A stretch of 64,000 nt of DNA from Armatimonadota bacterium (GTDB lineage: Bacteria; Armatimonadota; Fimbriimonadia; Fimbriimonadales; Fimbriimonadaceae), in NCBI GenBank assembly GCA_020161505.1, contig JAIUNY010000008.1, positions 1-64,000 of the forward strand, written 5' to 3'. Made by a program: the position numbers and the translations under genes. The notes beneath the pieces were generated by a model that was not told where the DNA came from, did not search any database, and was given only the letters and a program-made list of their open reading frames with translations. Shown here piece after piece: positions 50,969 through 58,567 of the stretch (its first letter is position 1; every line of letters starts with the position of its first letter).

Positions 50969-52083
50969 CATCGTTCGATCTCCAGGCGATATCGCCAATC
51001 TGCAAAGGAGCAGAGGGTCAGTCCCCCGCTTTCCGCCAGGTTCGTGATCAACTTGTCGCCCTCATTGAAGGCGGAAACATTCCTCTTGGCGCAAGGCTCC
51101 CCTCAGAGCCAGAACTTGCCAAGGCCCTCGGCGTCAGCAGAATGACCCTGGGTCGCGCCCTCAACGAGCTCTCCGATCTCGGCCTCGTCACCAGGCGCAG
51201 AGGTGCCGGAACCTTCATCAGTTCTCCGGGTGAAAGCGAAAGCCTCTCTCCCTCTTCCGTGCGAGTCCTCCTCACCGGGCCCGCCGAATTCGCGCTCCAC
51301 GACTACTACTTCGGCACGCTCCTCATCGGCCTGCGATCTGGCCTGATGGAGCGAGGCATGTCGCTAACCCTCGACAGCTACGAGAGCCTCGAAGGCGACC
51401 TTGACCCAACTCAGCCGCTCGTCTTGCTGAATCCCCGGCAAGAGCAAGCCCTCTCCGTCGATGCCGCCTGGACAGGCCCGGCTCCATTTGTGATCCTCGG
51501 TGCCCGATGGCCCGTCCAAAACGGCGTCTGCGTCGATTCCGATAACGTGCTCGCCTCCTTGCGCGCAATCGAGCACTTTGCTGGCCTCAACCATCAACGT
51601 TTTCTCTTCATCGGTGCCTGCCCGGGCGATGCCAACACCCTCGACCGAGTCAAAGGCTTTCACGCAGGATTGGCTCAGTACCAGTTGGAAGAAGTCCACG
51701 CTCCAATTTTGGTGGAGGACACGACGAAGCTCTCCACCGACGAGCGTCTGCGGATCACGGAAGCCATTCGCACGACCCGACCAACCGCCATCTTGGCCGG
51801 TGGTGCCACGATCTCCCTCCACGTTTGCCGCCTCGCCGAATCCATTGGCCTCGAAGTGCCACAGGATATCAGCCTGATCGCCTTTGATGATCCCCCGTTC
51901 ATGGCCCTCTCCCGTCCTGCGCTCACCACCATCGCCCAGCCGCTCGATCTGATGGCCGCCACCGTCTGCGATCTCCTCACTGATCCCAAACCGTCTAACG
52001 CAGGCGGACAGAAAGTTTTCCATCCTCATTTGACTCTCCGTAAGAGCACAGCCTTCTGCGCTCAAGGATCTAGAACATCATGA
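50962..52083 (+). CDS. GntR/LacI hybrid transcriptional regulator
   Basis: A 373-residue regulator. N-terminal winged helix of the GntR type (FRQVRDQLVALIEGGNIPLG, RLPSEPELAKALGVSRMTL, LNELSDLGLVTRRRGAGTFI) fused to a LacI/periplasmic-binding-type sensor domain (DYYFGTLLIGLRSGLMERGM, RFLFIGACPGDANTLDRVKGF, ISLIAFDDPPFMALSRPALTT). Such AraR-like hybrids usually sense a sugar. TTG 50962 is the only usable start and lies in the operator; GGGAG is 13 nt upstream. Its stop overlaps the start of the next pseudopilin (ATGA), so both share one message and the same control. Confidence 0.88.
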   Translation: MSTSFDLQAISPICKGAEGQSPAFRQVRDQLVALIEGGNIPLGARLPSEPELAKALGVSRMTLGRALNELSDLGLVTRRRGAGTFISSPGESESLSPSSVRVLLTGPAEFALHDYYFGTLLIGLRSGLMERGMSLTLDSYESLEGDLDPTQPLVLLNPRQEQALSVDAAWTGPAPFVILGARWPVQNGVCVDSDNVLASLRAIEHFAGLNHQRFLFIGACPGDANTLDRVKGFHAGLAQYQLEEVHAPILVEDTTKLSTDERLRITEAIRTTRPTAILAGGATISLHVCRLAESIGLEVPQDISLIAFDDPPFMALSRPALTTIAQPLDLMAATVCDLLTDPKPSNAGGQKVFHPHLTLRKSTAFCAQGSRTS

Positions 52084-52940
52084 AAACTCTGCGAAACACG
52101 AGGGGCTTTACCCTCATCGAACTCTTGGTTGTGATCGCGATCATCGCGATTCTCGCCGCCATCCTCTTCCCGGTGTTTGCCCGAGCCAAGGAAGCCGCAA
52201 AGAAGATCGCCGACCTCTCGAACCTGAAGCAGCTCGCCACCGCGACAGCAATCTATGGTTCCGACTACGACGACACCTTCATCAGCTTCCCCTATGCTGG
52301 TCAATGGTCTGGCCCCGCGTACACCAACCGCGAAAAGGGTCAGTTCTGGACGGACAAGCTGATGCCCTATGTCAAAGCGAAGCAAATGTACAACAACCCC
52401 GGCAACACGGACACCGTGTACGATTCGCGCGGCTACTGGCTTCCCGGGGCCACCAGCGCGGCCACTCTCGCCACCGATCCGTCGGTTTACCGAGTCACGT
52501 TTGCCATGAACCACATGCTCAATCGCGGCGACAAGGGCCCCGATAATCCGGGCGCAACCAGCCAAACCGCGGTCGACGAACCGGCACAAATCGCCCTCAT
52601 GGGCCCCTCGCAGTACGCCTGGACGTTCTCCAGCTGCCAACCGGACTCCGCCGGATCTCAAAACATGAGCTTCTACTGGCTGATCTCCGATGCCGGAAGG
52701 GGCTATGAGCTGTTCGGCAACAAGGGTGCCCAAGGCGGATGGAGCGCTGGCGCGAACTTCAGCTACGCGGATGGTCACGCGAAGTATCAAAAGGCCGTTG
52801 ACCGTGGCACCGCAACCGGCGACCTCTACGGCTACCAAGGACGCGACCTCTTCCGAGGCTACTTCCCTGGAGCGAAGACTCGTGCGAACGTGAGCACCAA
52901 CGGCACCTGCCCGAGCGATCGCGGCAGCATGGCCTACTAA
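52080..52940 (+). CDS. Type IV pilin-like (DUF1559-type) secreted protein
   Basis: A 286-residue pseudopilin coupled to the regulator through ATGA. Cleavage site and helix [17 protein letters not shown] with Glu+5, then FPVFARAKEAAKKIADLSNL; a large head with GGWSAGANFSYADGHAKYQK near the end, the conserved His/Asp patch of the family. Its N-terminus is nearly identical to that of the other pseudopilin 2.7 kb upstream while the heads differ. Likely exported and assembled or surface-anchored through the prepilin pathway; ligand probably a polysaccharide (inference). Confidence 0.88.
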   Translation: MKTLRNTRGFTLIELLVVIAIIAILAAILFPVFARAKEAAKKIADLSNLKQLATATAIYGSDYDDTFISFPYAGQWSGPAYTNREKGQFWTDKLMPYVKAKQMYNNPGNTDTVYDSRGYWLPGATSAATLATDPSVYRVTFAMNHMLNRGDKGPDNPGATSQTAVDEPAQIALMGPSQYAWTFSSCQPDSAGSQNMSFYWLISDAGRGYELFGNKGAQGGWSAGANFSYADGHAKYQKAVDRGTATGDLYGYQGRDLFRGYFPGAKTRANVSTNGTCPSDRGSMAY

Positions 52941-53008: not shown

Positions 53009-53197
53009 ATGAAAAAAGAACTCCCTCTGCCTGTCGTCATCGGCCTGATCGTCTTGGTGCTGGCTGCTGCAATTGGTTTCTTTGTGGCGAGTGGTGGGGT
53101 CGGCCCGGGAGACACCTCAAAGCCATTGCCCGGAGATTACGCCGGGCCCCCTCCGAAACAGGGCGGTGCCCCTGCGCCGGAAACGACTGGAGAATAA
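53009..53197 (+). CDS. Small membrane peptide with Pro/Gly-rich tail
   Basis: A 62-residue peptide: a basic/acidic start (MKKELPLP), one membrane helix (VVIGLIVLVLAAAIGFFVA) and a tail rich in Gly and Pro (GPGDTSKPLPGDYAGPPPKQ). It lies 68 bp after the pseudopilin and 11 bp before a similar tiny lipoprotein gene. Its GDYAGPP tail echoes GDYAAEP in the next gene. Family unknown; the context suggests a small partner of the pseudopilin. Confidence 0.55.
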   Translation: MKKELPLPVVIGLIVLVLAAAIGFFVASGGVGPGDTSKPLPGDYAGPPPKQGGAPAPETTGE

Positions 53198-53208
53198 CGA
53201 AACAAACA

Positions 53209-53382
53209 ATGAAAATCTTGAACCTGATTGTAGTCGGCCTGCTCGCCTTTGGCATCCTGGGGGGATGCGCATCGGCGGAGCAATCAAGCGAAACGAAAGC
53301 CGGTGACTACGCCGCTGAACCTGGACAACCGCGTCCCGGCGCCCCCGGATCTCCCGGTGCCGCCGCCAAAGAAGGCGAATAA
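53209..53382 (+). CDS. Tiny lipoprotein (57 residues)
   Basis: The signal MKILNLIVVGLLAFGILGGC with lipobox ILGGC is followed by a mature chain of 38 residues rich in Gly, Pro and Ala (GDYAAEPGQPRPGAPGSPG). It begins 11 bp after the stop of the preceding small peptide and shares its GDYA and PGxP motifs, so the two are likely a duplicated or paired set. Followed by a terminator at 53443. Too short for database families; called from the intact signal and context. Confidence 0.6.
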   Translation: MKILNLIVVGLLAFGILGGCASAEQSSETKAGDYAAEPGQPRPGAPGSPGAAAKEGE

Positions 53383-53442: not shown

Positions 53443-53464
53443 GGGCCCCGAGAGGGGCCCTTTT
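53443..53464 (+). terminator. Rho-independent terminator
   Basis: Stem GGGCCCC (53443-53449) with GGGGCCC (53454-53460), a GAGA tetraloop, then TTTT. It closes the regulator-pseudopilin-small-peptide unit. Confidence 0.85.
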
Positions 53465-53601: not shown

Positions 53602-54519
53602 ATGAAGAAATTGATCGCTCTCGCTGTGTGTGCACTTTCCGCTCTCGCGGCCCATGCGGAAACCTATGTCCTTTCCATTGGGATTAACGATTATCCCGAA
53701 ATCAAGCAGGCCGACGGCGAAGTCTACGACAGCGACCTCAGTGGTTGTGTCAATGATGCCAACTACATGCAATCCTTGTTCAGCAGCAAGTTCGGAGTGA
53801 AGCCGCAAAACATGCGAGTCCTCACCGATGACAAGGCCAACTTGAACAACCTCGTCGAAAACCTTAAGTGGTTGATCACCACCGCCAAGGCTGGCGACCA
53901 AATCGTCTTCACCTACTCCGGTCACGGCGCTCAAGTCGAAGTCGAAACCAGCGAAGAAGCCGACGGAATCCAAGAAGTGCTCGTGCTTGCCGACATGAAC
54001 CTGATTCCCGGGAGCCTCTTCGGTGAAATCGCCAAGACGATGACGCTCAACGGAATCCACAGCACCTTCGTTTTCGACAGCTGCTTCTCCGGCGGCATGA
54101 GCCGAAGCGTCGATGGCAAGGTCAAGGCCCGAGTCAAGACCCTTGGTGTTCTCAAGCCGAAGTCGGCCTCCAAGGTCAAGGACGCCGCTTCCAAAGTGCG
54201 CGGCATTGTTCCGAAGTCCAAGGGCCAAGGGACGGCCGAATCAGCCTTCCTCTTCGCCAGCAAGGAAACCAATCCCAGCTCGGACATCAGCGGACTCGAA
54301 GGCGTTGAGCCGCACGGCCTCTTCACCCTCCTTCTCATGGATGTGATGAACGCCAATCCGCAAGCCTCCCTGCGCGACATGTACGACTACATGGATGCCT
54401 CCCTTGCCGAGATCAACGAGTCGTTCAAGAAGAACAACGTTGATATGCAGTTCGACCAAGGCCCGAACTTCGAAGCCAGCGCTGCTCGCTCCAGCCAACC
54501 GATCATCCTCAAGAAGTAA
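53602..54519 (+). CDS. Exported caspase-like protease (orthocaspase)
   Basis: A 305-residue peptidase C14-type protein with signal peptide MKKLIALAVCALSALAAHA, so it acts outside the cytoplasm. The caspase-type fold is seen in TYVLSIGINDYPEI, catalytic His108 in YSGHGAQ and catalytic Cys161 in FDSCFSGG. Between Cys161 and the last strands is a basic stretch rich in Lys (VKARVKTLGVLKPKSASKVK), which may be a processing or regulatory loop. After the gene a 10-bp gap leads to a second caspase gene. Most bacterial orthocaspases cleave after Arg or Lys; specificity here is not shown. Confidence 0.88.
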   Translation: MKKLIALAVCALSALAAHAETYVLSIGINDYPEIKQADGEVYDSDLSGCVNDANYMQSLFSSKFGVKPQNMRVLTDDKANLNNLVENLKWLITTAKAGDQIVFTYSGHGAQVEVETSEEADGIQEVLVLADMNLIPGSLFGEIAKTMTLNGIHSTFVFDSCFSGGMSRSVDGKVKARVKTLGVLKPKSASKVKDAASKVRGIVPKSKGQGTAESAFLFASKETNPSSDISGLEGVEPHGLFTLLLMDVMNANPQASLRDMYDYMDASLAEINESFKKNNVDMQFDQGPNFEASAARSSQPIILKK

Positions 54520-54529
54520 GATCCTCGTG

Positions 54530-57500
54530 ATGAAAACGCGCCGCCTCCCGTCCCCAGCCGCTCTTCGAGTGCTGGGAGTCCTGGGGGCGGCGCTTCTCTT
54601 TTTGCCCGCCCTCGCCCAGAATCCCACCGATTCCGGCCGACTCCGATTGATCCCGATCTCCTCAGATGTCCTCATCCAAGACATCGAAGAATCGGTGGAT
54701 GGCACCAGGCTGCTCACCCACAACCGAGGCTTCGCTCCTCGCCTTTGGGAGCCCAAGACGATGCGGCTCCTCGCTGTTTTGAGCGGCGACGGAAATGAAG
54801 TCACGGACATCTTCTTCTCTTCCGACGGGCAGAAAATTGTCGCGATCGGCCCCGACCGAGTGCGCCTCTACAACGCACGCACTGCTCGACAGCTCGCGGT
54901 TTGGACGAACATCACTCTGCGCGCCGAAGAGACCTTCACCGTTTGCCGGTTGACGCCGGATCACAGTCGGATTTATGTCGGCACGAGCCGCGGGCGCGTT
55001 CTGACCGCCCCAACGCAGGCCGCTTCGACCCTTCAAGCGACCACCCTCGACCTCGCACCAGAGGGTGCGATCAATAGCCTCGAGATCTCCCCCGACGGAA
55101 ACCTCCTTGCCGCAGCAACTCTCAGTTCATCCATCGGCCTTCTTGACCTCCGCACCCCGACCTCCTCGCGAAAACTTGCCGAAGGAATCGGCGGAGGAAT
55201 CTGGATTCGGTTCTCCCCGGACAGCAAAGATCTCCTCGTCACTCAAACCAAGGCTCTCGCTTCCCTCTGGAACATTGAATCCGGCCAAAAGCGGGGTGAA
55301 TGGAAGCACATCGTCGGCGAACGAGGGCTCCCGACATCCTTCATGGGGGCCAGCTTTGTCGGCGAAAAAGGCGACCTCATCCTGATCGCGGACGAAAAAG
55401 GCCTGATGACCTTGATCGACCGATCCTCGCTCCAGGAAGTCCGCAAACTCGAGGGCTACCGCTCCCCCATCCGCGAACTCAGGGTCAGTCAAGATGGTCG
55501 AGTCCTCGGCACCTACGCTGACGACACCTTCATCGAGGGTGAGCAGCTCAAGCTCTGGGATGTCTCCACCGGCAAAGAGTTCCCATACACGCGCGGCGAC
55601 AGCGGCCCGACCGCCGGAGAGTTCAGCCCCGACGGATCAGTCTTCTGGGTCGGCTACCAAGATGGCAGCATCCGCCGCCACAAAGTGAGCGATGGCTCCA
55701 TCACCACCGAGACTCTCTCCCAAGTCGACGCCTACTCCTTCATTGCCCCGGTCGGAGCCAGCGGCTACTTCCAGTTCAGCCGCCGCCGCGAGGGCTTCTC
55801 GACCGACGTCTTCCACACCGTCGTCAACCCAGAGCGGCCCGATCTCGCTGGGCGACGCACCTTCACCTACTTCGGCTCAGCGATGAAAGCCGCTCCAGGA
55901 GGCCGCCTCGCCCTGGCCTACGGATATCGACAAGCGGAGGGATCCGACGAAGAAATCAAGATCACTGCCGTTTGGGATGTCGCCAGTCTGGAATACATCT
56001 GGGGGTTCTGGGATGAGTTTGAAGGGGCCACGTGGGGCGCAGGAGAAACCCTGGTTGCCTTCGACCGCACCTCCGCTCACATCTTTGATATGGCGGTGCC
56101 CGAATACAAATCCACCGTTTTCAACAACCCCGACGATGTGGTGATGCAAGCCGAGCTTGCCCCGGACAACAAAACGGTGCTCCTCTGGTGCGAAAAAGCC
56201 GGGGTGATTCTCGTCTCGGCTGAGGATCCGACCAAGGTCGTCAAAGTCGCCGACAATCTTTGGAACTTCGCCTTCTCCGCAGACGGCTCCAAGATGGCAT
56301 TCACCGTCGAAGGTCGGATCGAGATCTGGGATCTTGCGAAGCTCGAAAAAGTCTGGAGCAAGCCCGCAGAACTCGCCAAAAACTACTCGGGTGACGATGT
56401 ATCCGTCACGGACAATTTTCAGTTCATCGAGGGCGGAACAAAGTTCGTTGCGCGAGGGCACTCAACTCTTGTCTGCTACGAATCAAGCACCGGCAAGATC
56501 CTCTACCGAGAAACTGGCCTCGCCGATCTCGACGGATCGTCGGCAAGTTTCGCACCCTCCAGCGACATCCTGGCGATCCCGGTCAACCGGAGCGTCAACC
56601 TCATCAATCTTCGCACGGGCAAGCTCCACGCCAAGATCACCAGCCGAGATCAGGTCGAATCCGTCAGTTTCTGCGAAAACGACTCGCGACTCCTCATCAA
56701 CGACCGCCTCGACCAGGTGTCGATCTACGACACCACGAAGCCCCTTCCCAGCCCCAGCGGCGACAACATCCCAACCTTCCGCAGGCTCGGTTCCTTCGTC
56801 GCCATGACCGACGGCTCCTGGCTCGTCATGGACGAAGACGGCCGCTATGATGCCAGCGATCCGAGCAAAGTCTTCGGTGCCAGCTACGTGCTGGAGTGGG
56901 AAGGCGGCCTGGAACCGATTGATGTCCAGCAGTTCAAGCCCGTCTTCTACGAGCCGAATCTCTTTGCCAAACTCCTCGGCAAAGACACCAGTCCGAAGCG
57001 ATCCGTCCCCGATCTGAACAGCATCCGGCTCTACCCCGACATCGAAATTCAGCGGAGTAAGGTCAATCAAAATCGCATCTCCGTCACCCTGAAACCTCGC
57101 GATGAGGGCGGAGTCGGCACAGTCCGAGTCCTTCTGAACGGCAAGGAAATCGAGACCAAGAAGGGCTCTGACTTCTTTAACGTCAACCTCGCCGACTACC
57201 AGGCATTTTTCCTGCCATCGAGCCAGCTCCCCGAAGGCCAAGGAAACCAGATCGAAGTCATCGCCACCAACGCGAAAGGCGATCTCGTCAGCCGGCCACA
57301 GGTGCTCGATCTCGGCGTCCCCGCCAACCTCCAAACTCCAGAGGTGAACCTCTACGGACTCTTCGTCGGGGTGGGAGACTATGTCGGAGACAAGCGCGAT
57401 CTCAAAGCCCCTCCCGCTGATGCCGCCAAACTCAAGGAAGCTCTGAACTTCACCGGAAACAAGCTCCTCCCGAACCGTGTCCATCTCAATTTGCTCTCCA

Positions 57501-58567
57501 CTGCCGAGGGAGAAACGCGACCAACCCGAGAAGCCATTCTCGGCTGGCTCGCAGAAACCGCCAAGAAAGCAACAAGTTCCGACATCATTTTTGTCTTCTT
57601 TGCCGGACATGGCACCAGCCGGATCGGCGAGAGCAGCGGCTACTTCTTCCTCACCGCCGATGCCAACCCCGGCGACGTCACCCCCGCGATCCTCGGAACC
57701 GCCACCATCAGCGGCGAAGATCTCCAAAAAGCCCTCGCCGCCATCCCCGCAACCAAGCAGGTGATTATCCTCGACACCTGCCACAGCGGAGCCGCCGCGA
57801 GCTCTGTGATTGATGGCAGCGCCAGTGCGTCCACCCAAGCCGAGCGGAGCGTGAGCAGCGACTATGTCCGGGCCTACGAATCCATCAAGGACGCCAGCGG
57901 AACCTGGCTTCTCGCCGGAGCTGCTGCCGACCAACTCAGCTACGAGTCCAGCCACGTCGGCTACGGAATGCTCACCTATTCCCTCCTCGAAGCCATTGAC
58001 CTCGCCTCCGATGTCGGCCTGCGTAAGACGGCAAGCGGCGAAATGTTTCTGGATGTCAGTGTCTGGCTGGCCTACGCCGCCGGACGGGTCGAATCTCTTA
58101 AGAACGAGGTCTCGATTGCAGGAGTCCAACGCCCCGAACTTCGCCGATCTCCCACCGGGCAGACCTTCGATGTCGGGGTGACCAATGCCGAGAATCGAGG
58201 AATCCTCGCCTTGCCGCCGCCGAAACCCATCGTGATTCTCGGCACGTTCGATCAGGACGAAGAAGACCCGCTCGGCCTCGAACCGTTGTTCGGCAAGGCC
58301 TTTGCCGAGAGCAAGGTCTACAAACTCTGGACCGACGTCCAGCGACACCCCAACGTCTACCGCGTCGCCGGCAGTTACCAATCCGAAGGCTCTGCCGTCA
58401 CGCTGCGCCTGGTGATCCAGCGATATGACCGAGACTCCAAGCGCAAAACACTTCGGACAATCGACCTGACCGGCGACTCGAAGGACTTGCCCAAGCTGGC
58501 CCAGAGTGCCCTCAGTGCGATCGACCAAGCAATCGTCGCCCTGGAATCCGAACGGCGTGGCGGCTAG
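54530..58567 (+). CDS. Exported WD40-type propeller protein with C-terminal caspase domain
   Basis: ATG 54530 gives 1,345 residues with a signal peptide (LRVLGVLGAALLFLPALAQ). About residues 40-800 hold WD40-like beta-propeller repeats (VTDIFFSSDGQKIVAIGPDRV, INSLEISPDGNLLAAATLSSS, WNFAFSADGSKMAFTVEGR). The C14 caspase domain follows at about 940-1,190: LYGLFVGVGDYVGD, catalytic His1027 in FFAGHGTS and Cys1084 in ILDTCHSGAA. The final 150 residues form a further beta domain. The propeller probably binds partners or substrate. 10 bp after the first caspase gene, so co-transcribed. In known bacterial forms the caspase domain is usually N-terminal. Confidence 0.85.
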   Translation: MKTRRLPSPAALRVLGVLGAALLFLPALAQNPTDSGRLRLIPISSDVLIQDIEESVDGTRLLTHNRGFAPRLWEPKTMRLLAVLSGDGNEVTDIFFSSDGQKIVAIGPDRVRLYNARTARQLAVWTNITLRAEETFTVCRLTPDHSRIYVGTSRGRVLTAPTQAASTLQATTLDLAPEGAINSLEISPDGNLLAAATLSSSIGLLDLRTPTSSRKLAEGIGGGIWIRFSPDSKDLLVTQTKALASLWNIESGQKRGEWKHIVGERGLPTSFMGASFVGEKGDLILIADEKGLMTLIDRSSLQEVRKLEGYRSPIRELRVSQDGRVLGTYADDTFIEGEQLKLWDVSTGKEFPYTRGDSGPTAGEFSPDGSVFWVGYQDGSIRRHKVSDGSITTETLSQVDAYSFIAPVGASGYFQFSRRREGFSTDVFHTVVNPERPDLAGRRTFTYFGSAMKAAPGGRLALAYGYRQAEGSDEEIKITAVWDVASLEYIWGFWDEFEGATWGAGETLVAFDRTSAHIFDMAVPEYKSTVFNNPDDVVMQAELAPDNKTVLLWCEKAGVILVSAEDPTKVVKVADNLWNFAFSADGSKMAFTVEGRIEIWDLAKLEKVWSKPAELAKNYSGDDVSVTDNFQFIEGGTKFVARGHSTLVCYESSTGKILYRETGLADLDGSSASFAPSSDILAIPVNRSVNLINLRTGKLHAKITSRDQVESVSFCENDSRLLINDRLDQVSIYDTTKPLPSPSGDNIPTFRRLGSFVAMTDGSWLVMDEDGRYDASDPSKVFGASYVLEWEGGLEPIDVQQFKPVFYEPNLFAKLLGKDTSPKRSVPDLNSIRLYPDIEIQRSKVNQNRISVTLKPRDEGGVGTVRVLLNGKEIETKKGSDFFNVNLADYQAFFLPSSQLPEGQGNQIEVIATNAKGDLVSRPQVLDLGVPANLQTPEVNLYGLFVGVGDYVGDKRDLKAPPADAAKLKEALNFTGNKLLPNRVHLNLLSTAEGETRPTREAILGWLAETAKKATSSDIIFVFFAGHGTSRIGESSGYFFLTADANPGDVTPAILGTATISGEDLQKALAAIPATKQVIILDTCHSGAAASSVIDGSASASTQAERSVSSDYVRAYESIKDASGTWLLAGAAADQLSYESSHVGYGMLTYSLLEAIDLASDVGLRKTASGEMFLDVSVWLAYAAGRVESLKNEVSIAGVQRPELRRSPTGQTFDVGVTNAENRGILALPPPKPIVILGTFDQDEEDPLGLEPLFGKAFAESKVYKLWTDVQRHPNVYRVAGSYQSEGSAVTLRLVIQRYDRDSKRKTLRTIDLTGDSKDLPKLAQSALSAIDQAIVALESERRGG

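Follow-up and report, generated by a model that had tools for sequence, protein, structure and literature searches.

A predicted pair of exported metacaspase-like proteases with a candidate maturation site in the Armatimonadota

Most discussion of bacterial metacaspases casts them as cytoplasmic proteins of cell death or signaling, and few of their partners or activation events are known. What, then, might two adjacent C14 protease genes with apparent export signals do in a member of the Fimbriimonadaceae, and could one of the products activate the other? The genes lie in the window, by which we mean the whole stretch of DNA analyzed here (64,000 nucleotides of contig JAIUNY010000008.1). An earlier note on this DNA described two secreted caspase-like proteases encoded 10 bp apart and suggested that they form a two-step proteolytic cascade outside the cytoplasm. 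We call the small protease P1 and the large one P2, and list the features of the locus in Table 1.

Table 1. Features of the protease pair and its upstream flank, in window positions
Feature	Position	Strand	Basis
Terminator-like hairpin and T-run, 7 GC pairs, tail TTTTCTCGTT, 141 bp upstream of the pair	53443..53460	+	pattern match
P1, small metacaspase-like protease gene, 305 aa	53602..54519	+	PF00656 69.7 bits; dN/dS 0.01-0.06
P1 signal peptide, residues 1-19, predicted cleavage AHA/ETY	53602..53658	+	rule-based reading; same layout in 24/24 orthologs
P1 catalytic His108 codon (SGHG)	53923..53925	+	H in 24/24 orthologs
P1 catalytic Cys161 codon (DSCFSGG); Asp159, two positions earlier, is an S1-pocket residue	54082..54084	+	C and D in 24/24
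P1 linker between the p20 and p10 halves, basic, residues 169-212	54106..54237	+	Lys+Arg enrichment; low pLDDT
P1 Lys205 codon, [PST]-[KR]-[QSAG] motif, candidate p20/p10 processing site	54214..54216	+	alignments, shuffle test
P1 p10-like half, residues 213-300, with S1-pocket Ser226/Asp228	54238..54501	+	profile alignment; S/T and D in 24/24
P2, large protease gene, 1345 aa from ATG 54530	54530..58567	+	Pfam, alignments, structure comparison
P2 signal peptide, residues 1-29	54530..54616	+	hydrophobic segment in 21/21, no lipobox
P2 WD40-like region, residues ~40-740, size of two propellers (inferred)	54647..56749	+	WD40-type Pfam matches
P2 conserved bridge module (WLVMDxxGRYDA...GGLEP), residues 748-830	56771..57019	+	alignments; present in divergent relatives too
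P2 Ig-like domain, residues ~835-935 (weak)	57032..57334	+	Big_7 weak, 6/21 members; all-beta in model
P2 C14 caspase domain, residues ~940-1165	57347..58024	+	Pfam; AtMC4 Z 19.4, MALT1 Z 18.6
P2 catalytic His1027 codon	57608..57610	+	H in 21/21
P2 catalytic Cys1084 codon	57779..57781	+	C in 21/21
P2 C-terminal domain, residues ~1233-1345, TolB N-terminal-like (weak)	58226..58564	+	7mx5, prob 1.00, rmsd 3.5, 125 columns

The two products and their active sites

Both proteins match PF00656 above the Pfam cut-off of 21.4, P1 over residues 23–293 and P2, with 57.3 bits, over residues 944–1161. The intact His/Cys pairs lie exactly where they had been placed, at 108/161 and 1027/1084, on two same-strand genes separated by 10 bp. 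A longer P2 reading frame, from 54395, uses an upstream start inside P1. Variation in the catalytic residues would have counted against the earlier note, and none was seen among 24 aligned P1 and 21 aligned P2 orthologs. Pseudo-enzymes are ruled out by these invariant dyads, and chance reading frames by conservation together with dN/dS. With dN/dS values of 0.01–0.06, the pair is under strong purifying selection.

The signal peptides claimed for both proteins were also recovered, assigned here by rule and not by a trained predictor. In all 24 P1 orthologs, a hydrophobic stretch leads into A-x-A (or similar) and then a conserved [E/D/A]-[T/S]-Y, and in all 21 P2 sequences the N-terminal hydrophobic segment tops the rest of the chain. 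Neither leader has a lipobox.

Judged by its domain content, P1 is a p20–linker–p10 metacaspase. It shares with that class (C14B) a p20 and a p10 half, both covered in profile alignments to the yeast and Candida metacaspase-1 proteins, and an acidic S1 pocket suited to Lys or Arg. Its structure model (mean pLDDT 82.5) aligns over residues 17–305 with residues 6–325 of AtMC9 (VIA). The closest matches are AtMC9 (Z 26.6) and AtMC4 (Z 26.2), with 24–26% identity across ~245 residues, followed by Geobacter GSU0716 (Z 24.1) and then MALT1 (Z 20.8; all VIA). In AtMC4, the pocket for basic residues consists of Ser84, Asp137, Ser350, and Asp352 (PMC7206013). The P1 equivalents, as read from motifs, are Ser106, Asp159, Ser/Thr226, and Asp228, conserved in 24/24 orthologs. 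Thus P1 resembles the plant type II enzymes AtMC4 and AtMC9 in its p20–linker–p10 layout, Cys-His dyad, four-residue basic S1 pocket, and basic linker residues, whereas it differs from them in being bacterial, in its predicted export, and in its shorter linker (46–70 aa as measured across orthologs).

P2 is built, from its N terminus, of a signal peptide, a WD40-like region, a bridge, an Ig-like domain, the C14 domain, and a TolB-N-like domain. WD40-type Pfam matches fall at residues ~53–395 and 580–736. Since the WD40-like region spans ~700 residues, it probably forms two propellers rather than the single one described earlier; the claim that the caspase domain follows the propeller stands. 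The two flanking domain assignments, Ig-like and TolB-N-like, are weak, the TolB-like match having been placed at the C terminus from model topology. A TolB-N-like C terminus combined with propellers recalls a rearranged TolB.

Foldseek places MALT1 at the top of its matches for the C-terminal half of P2, whereas VIA ties the C14 domain between AtMC4 and MALT1. P2 also shares with MALT1 an Asp two positions before the Cys and a Glu in p10, as expected of an Arg-specific pocket; it differs from MALT1 in its propellers and its predicted export. Asp1082, Ser1137, and Glu1139 are kept in every P2 sequence covering these positions, and the position two before the His is Ala instead of Ser in most sequences. 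Given the acidic S1 residues in both proteins (P1 Asp159/Asp228; P2 Asp1082/Glu1139), either could cut after Lys or Arg, and this is the specificity that we predict for both.

Pairing and conservation of the locus

Co-occurrence of the two genes was one of the checks proposed in the earlier note, and within the family it is strict. Among 73 Fimbriimonadaceae genomes (that of the window included), 21 carry both genes, one carries P1 only (G011), none carries P2 only, and 51 carry neither (Fisher p 2e-17; ortholog calls by chosen E-value bounds of <1e-40 for P1 and <1e-100 for P2). Of the 21 genomes with both, 20 have the genes next to each other on the same strand, with gaps of 2–29 bp where both starts are clear; in G034 they lie on different contigs, and the G069 contig ends within P2. 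An adjacent pair is also present in a named Fimbriimonadales record (L110). The distance matrices of P1 and P2 are correlated (r 0.86; 0/2000 permutations).

Conservation is confined to the pair itself. Flanking genes are common only to the closest relatives, beyond which the pair is the only conserved content at the locus, and we therefore rejected the idea that it belongs to a larger conserved cluster. In a scan of ~85,000 species genomes, from which records of the window's own genome may be left out, the near full-length P1 loci with ≥38% identity among the best 80 come only from Armatimonadota, Fimbriimonadales, Fimbriimonadaceae, and Chthonomonas records and from one labeled "bacterium". 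The remaining loci among these 80 are generic C14 matches at ~E 1e-25 or weaker. The orthologous pair itself was found only in the Armatimonadota (Fimbriimonadales). The G069 pair (L088/L089) stands at ~59–60% to that of the window, closer than the pairs of the genus under which G069 is listed, which stand at 42–47% to it (for P1); this suggests that the pair was transferred whole or that the contig is misbinned.

The layout is operon-like. The hairpin upstream likely separates the pair from upstream pilin/lipoprotein genes, and a pattern scan found no terminator-like site in the 10-bp gap; together these fit one transcription unit, although shuffled sequence yields about as many terminator-like patterns as the region does. 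The upstream genes are a DUF1559/N-methylation pseudopilin (52080–52940) followed by two tiny reading frames (53010–53197 and 53210–53382). The latter are membrane- or lipoprotein-like, their tails are rich in Pro and Gly, and the second has a lipobox (LGGC); their conservation with the pair was not seen outside the genus.

The P1 linker and its possible cleavage

The Lys-rich insert after the catalytic Cys of P1, which the earlier note regarded as a possible target of P2, is indeed present. It comprises ~45–50 residues with 27% Lys+Arg, compared with 10% for the whole protein. Ortholog linkers vary in length and contain 16–28% Lys+Arg, compared with 10–13% for the whole proteins. In the model, pLDDT is <50 at residues 163–171 and ~62–78 further along the linker. 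Just before p10, 22/24 orthologs carry a [PST]-[KR]-[QSAG] motif, compared with a mean of 4.8 and a maximum of 12 in 2000 shuffles of the linkers, a test made optimistic by the motif having been defined after inspection of the data. Once close relatives are removed, the count is 18/20. The position of Lys205 within this motif is K/R in 24/24 orthologs in one alignment and in 22/24 in another.

A second conserved basic pair, Arg177 (20/24) and Lys179 (23/24; one alignment), lies in or beside a predicted strand ahead of the linker helix. In AtMC4, linker Lys225 occupies the active site at first; Ca2+ then triggers the enzyme to cut itself at this residue (PMC7206013). Siting this residue on the P1 linker by profile alignment failed, as the match skips the linker; topologically, Arg177/Lys179 are a good match to it, so the first cut might fall there. 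The conserved Lys/Arg pocket and a recurrent linker site where such enzymes are cut in maturation together make processing of P1 after a basic residue likely.

Which enzyme would make this cut? Metacaspases of the P1 type usually cut themselves, and self-cleavage is the simpler reading. The G011 ortholog retains the site, and the one large relative found for it is divergent and lies on another contig; looser Pro-Lys/Arg sites occur in paralogs that have no large neighbor (L099 "QPRI", L181 "LPKQ"). This persistence leans toward self-cleavage, if weakly, because the L099 and L181 genomes also have a true pair. In bacteria, the orthocaspase MaOC1 cuts an Arg-Arg substrate and processes itself with no need for Ca2+ (PMC8283722).

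Taken together, the pair is real and probably functional, and its pairing, predicted export, and predicted catalytic competence are well supported. The reading that we favor, and consider reasonably probable, is a conserved two-gene unit in which both products would be C14 cysteine proteases, exported and catalytically competent, cutting after Lys or Arg and acting together. P1 would be made as a precursor and matured by cuts at basic linker residues, chiefly around Lys205 before p10, most likely by self-cleavage and possibly with help from P2. The N-terminal propellers of P2 would bind a partner or ligand, and its C-terminal domain may dock it in the envelope, making P2 the targeted or sensing partner. 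Both would then cooperate on shared substrates, either periplasmic or on the cell surface. Within this proposal, the gene layout, conservation, rule-read export signals, intact dyads, pocket residues, and recurrent linker site are observed, whereas the Lys/Arg specificity, precursor processing, division of labor, and envelope docking are what we infer.

The cascade differs from this proposal in the origin of the cut. Here P2, triggered through its propellers, would cleave the P1 linker at Lys205 or its neighbors, and P1 would cut the final substrates, much as initiator and executioner caspases do. The strict pairing of a small single-domain enzyme with a large multi-domain one speaks for such an arrangement, as do the cleavable basic linker of P1 and the acidic S1 residues of P2. 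However, self-cleavage explains the linker without P2, and the G011 ortholog, with its site intact, and the L099 and L181 paralogs, with their Pro-Lys/Arg sites, point the same way. Moreover, P2 has a basic residue of its own in the loop after its Cys, Arg1106 (R/K in 20/20). With candidate sites in the linkers of both proteins, sequence cannot tell who cuts whom, nor in which direction cleavage would run. We regard this cascade as possible but rather unlikely. The broader view of the locus as an extracytoplasmic bacterial counterpart of caspase cascades, in which an exported propeller protease would, on sensing a signal, activate its dedicated exported metacaspase by cleavage in the basic linker of the latter, likewise seems rather unlikely to us.

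Mutual activation may also play no part at all. Gingipains are exported clan CD proteases of family C25, Arg- and Lys-specific, that work together, and P1 and P2 could likewise serve parallel extracellular digestion, for nutrition or surface remodeling. The likeness lies in two exported Lys/Arg proteases of clan CD; the family is a different one. Predicted export of both proteins agrees with this role, and the seven C14 genes of the window's own genome and the arrays of some relatives would suit a hydrolase repertoire. Nevertheless, strict one-to-one pairing and a large propeller region argue for something more specific, and the pair is absent from ~70% of the family's genomes; digestion is thus a possible explanation, if on the unlikely side. 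P2 could instead serve mainly to scaffold or inhibit P1, keeping hold of it and directing it to substrates, given that propellers and an Ig-like domain are interaction modules and that the layout implies adjacent expression. Unlike in pseudo-enzymes, however, the dyad and S1 acids of P2 are invariant, which makes this role improbable. Finally, bacterial caspases with NACHT or gasdermin partners have been proposed to act in defense or cell death. A generic PADLOC caspase model does match P1 and P2, but it only recognizes the C14 fold; both proteins appear to be exported, and no defense genes were recognized among the neighbors scanned. A defense or cell-death module is thus the least credible of these alternatives, and very improbable.

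Relation to other C14 systems

WD40 is the commonest accessory domain in bacterial orthocaspases and metacaspases (PMC3501461, PMC8283722); of the 671 prokaryotic metacaspases counted by Asplund-Samuelsson et al. (2012, PMC3501461), 10.9% have it. P2 resembles these proteins in combining WD40 with a C14 domain. It departs from the surveyed cyanobacterial WD40 orthocaspases, mostly C14-first, in placing its propellers first and in its predicted export; surveys find that accessory domains usually follow C14 (PMC5756287, PMC8283722). These surveys bear out the statement that P2 reverses the order of most bacterial WD40-caspase proteins, but only as far as cyanobacteria are concerned. The exported large relatives examined here that have a recognizable propeller carry it before C14, including those in the phyla of G121 (Acidobacteriota) and G122, and we therefore do not regard propeller-first order, also present in genomes sampled from two further phyla, as a novelty. 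Assignment to the EACC1-associated caspases (NCBIfam caspase_w_EACC1) was likewise rejected, as the scores of 60.8 and 25.2 bits fall under the cut-off of 140.

The suggestion that the pair has no described counterpart goes too far. Twenty operons with more than one metacaspase, containing two or three of them, were reported from Alphaproteobacteria, Bacteroidetes, Cyanobacteria, and Deltaproteobacteria, and extracellular action of metacaspases was raised in the same 2012 study (PMC3501461). Among the genomes compared here, a small exported C14 gene is followed by a propeller-first one in both G121 (L180) and G122 (L157). Shinella and Rhizobium loci (L116–L173) hold nearly overlapping tandem C14 genes, recurrent in Rhizobiales, whose products both have N-terminal hydrophobic leaders as P1 and P2 do; unlike P1 and P2, the partners are two proteins of ~500–520 aa without recognized propellers. 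Larger arrays also occur. At least five exported propeller-first C14 genes, encoding ~1100–1380 aa each, lie in G315:C51:70000–118000 (L223–L225; phylum of G121), where the array ends with a smaller C14 gene and more C14 genes lie nearby. In related Armatimonadota, C14 genes cluster in groups of three to five inside 20 kb (L091, G082:C12:1–18000; L090, G080:C22; L094, G060:C12). In the literature searched here, we found nothing on Armatimonadetes metacaspases and nothing relevant on secreted orthocaspases. On these comparisons, P1 and P2 are a distinct, lineage-restricted variant of a wider bacterial metacaspase-operon theme.

The pair is strictly coupled, compact, and by prediction exported, and its candidate processing site makes maturation of a metacaspase outside the cytoplasm a testable matter. 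It likewise offers a testable case of two bacterial C14 enzymes acting on each other. If P2 does activate P1, protease-to-protease caspase cascades would extend beyond animals.
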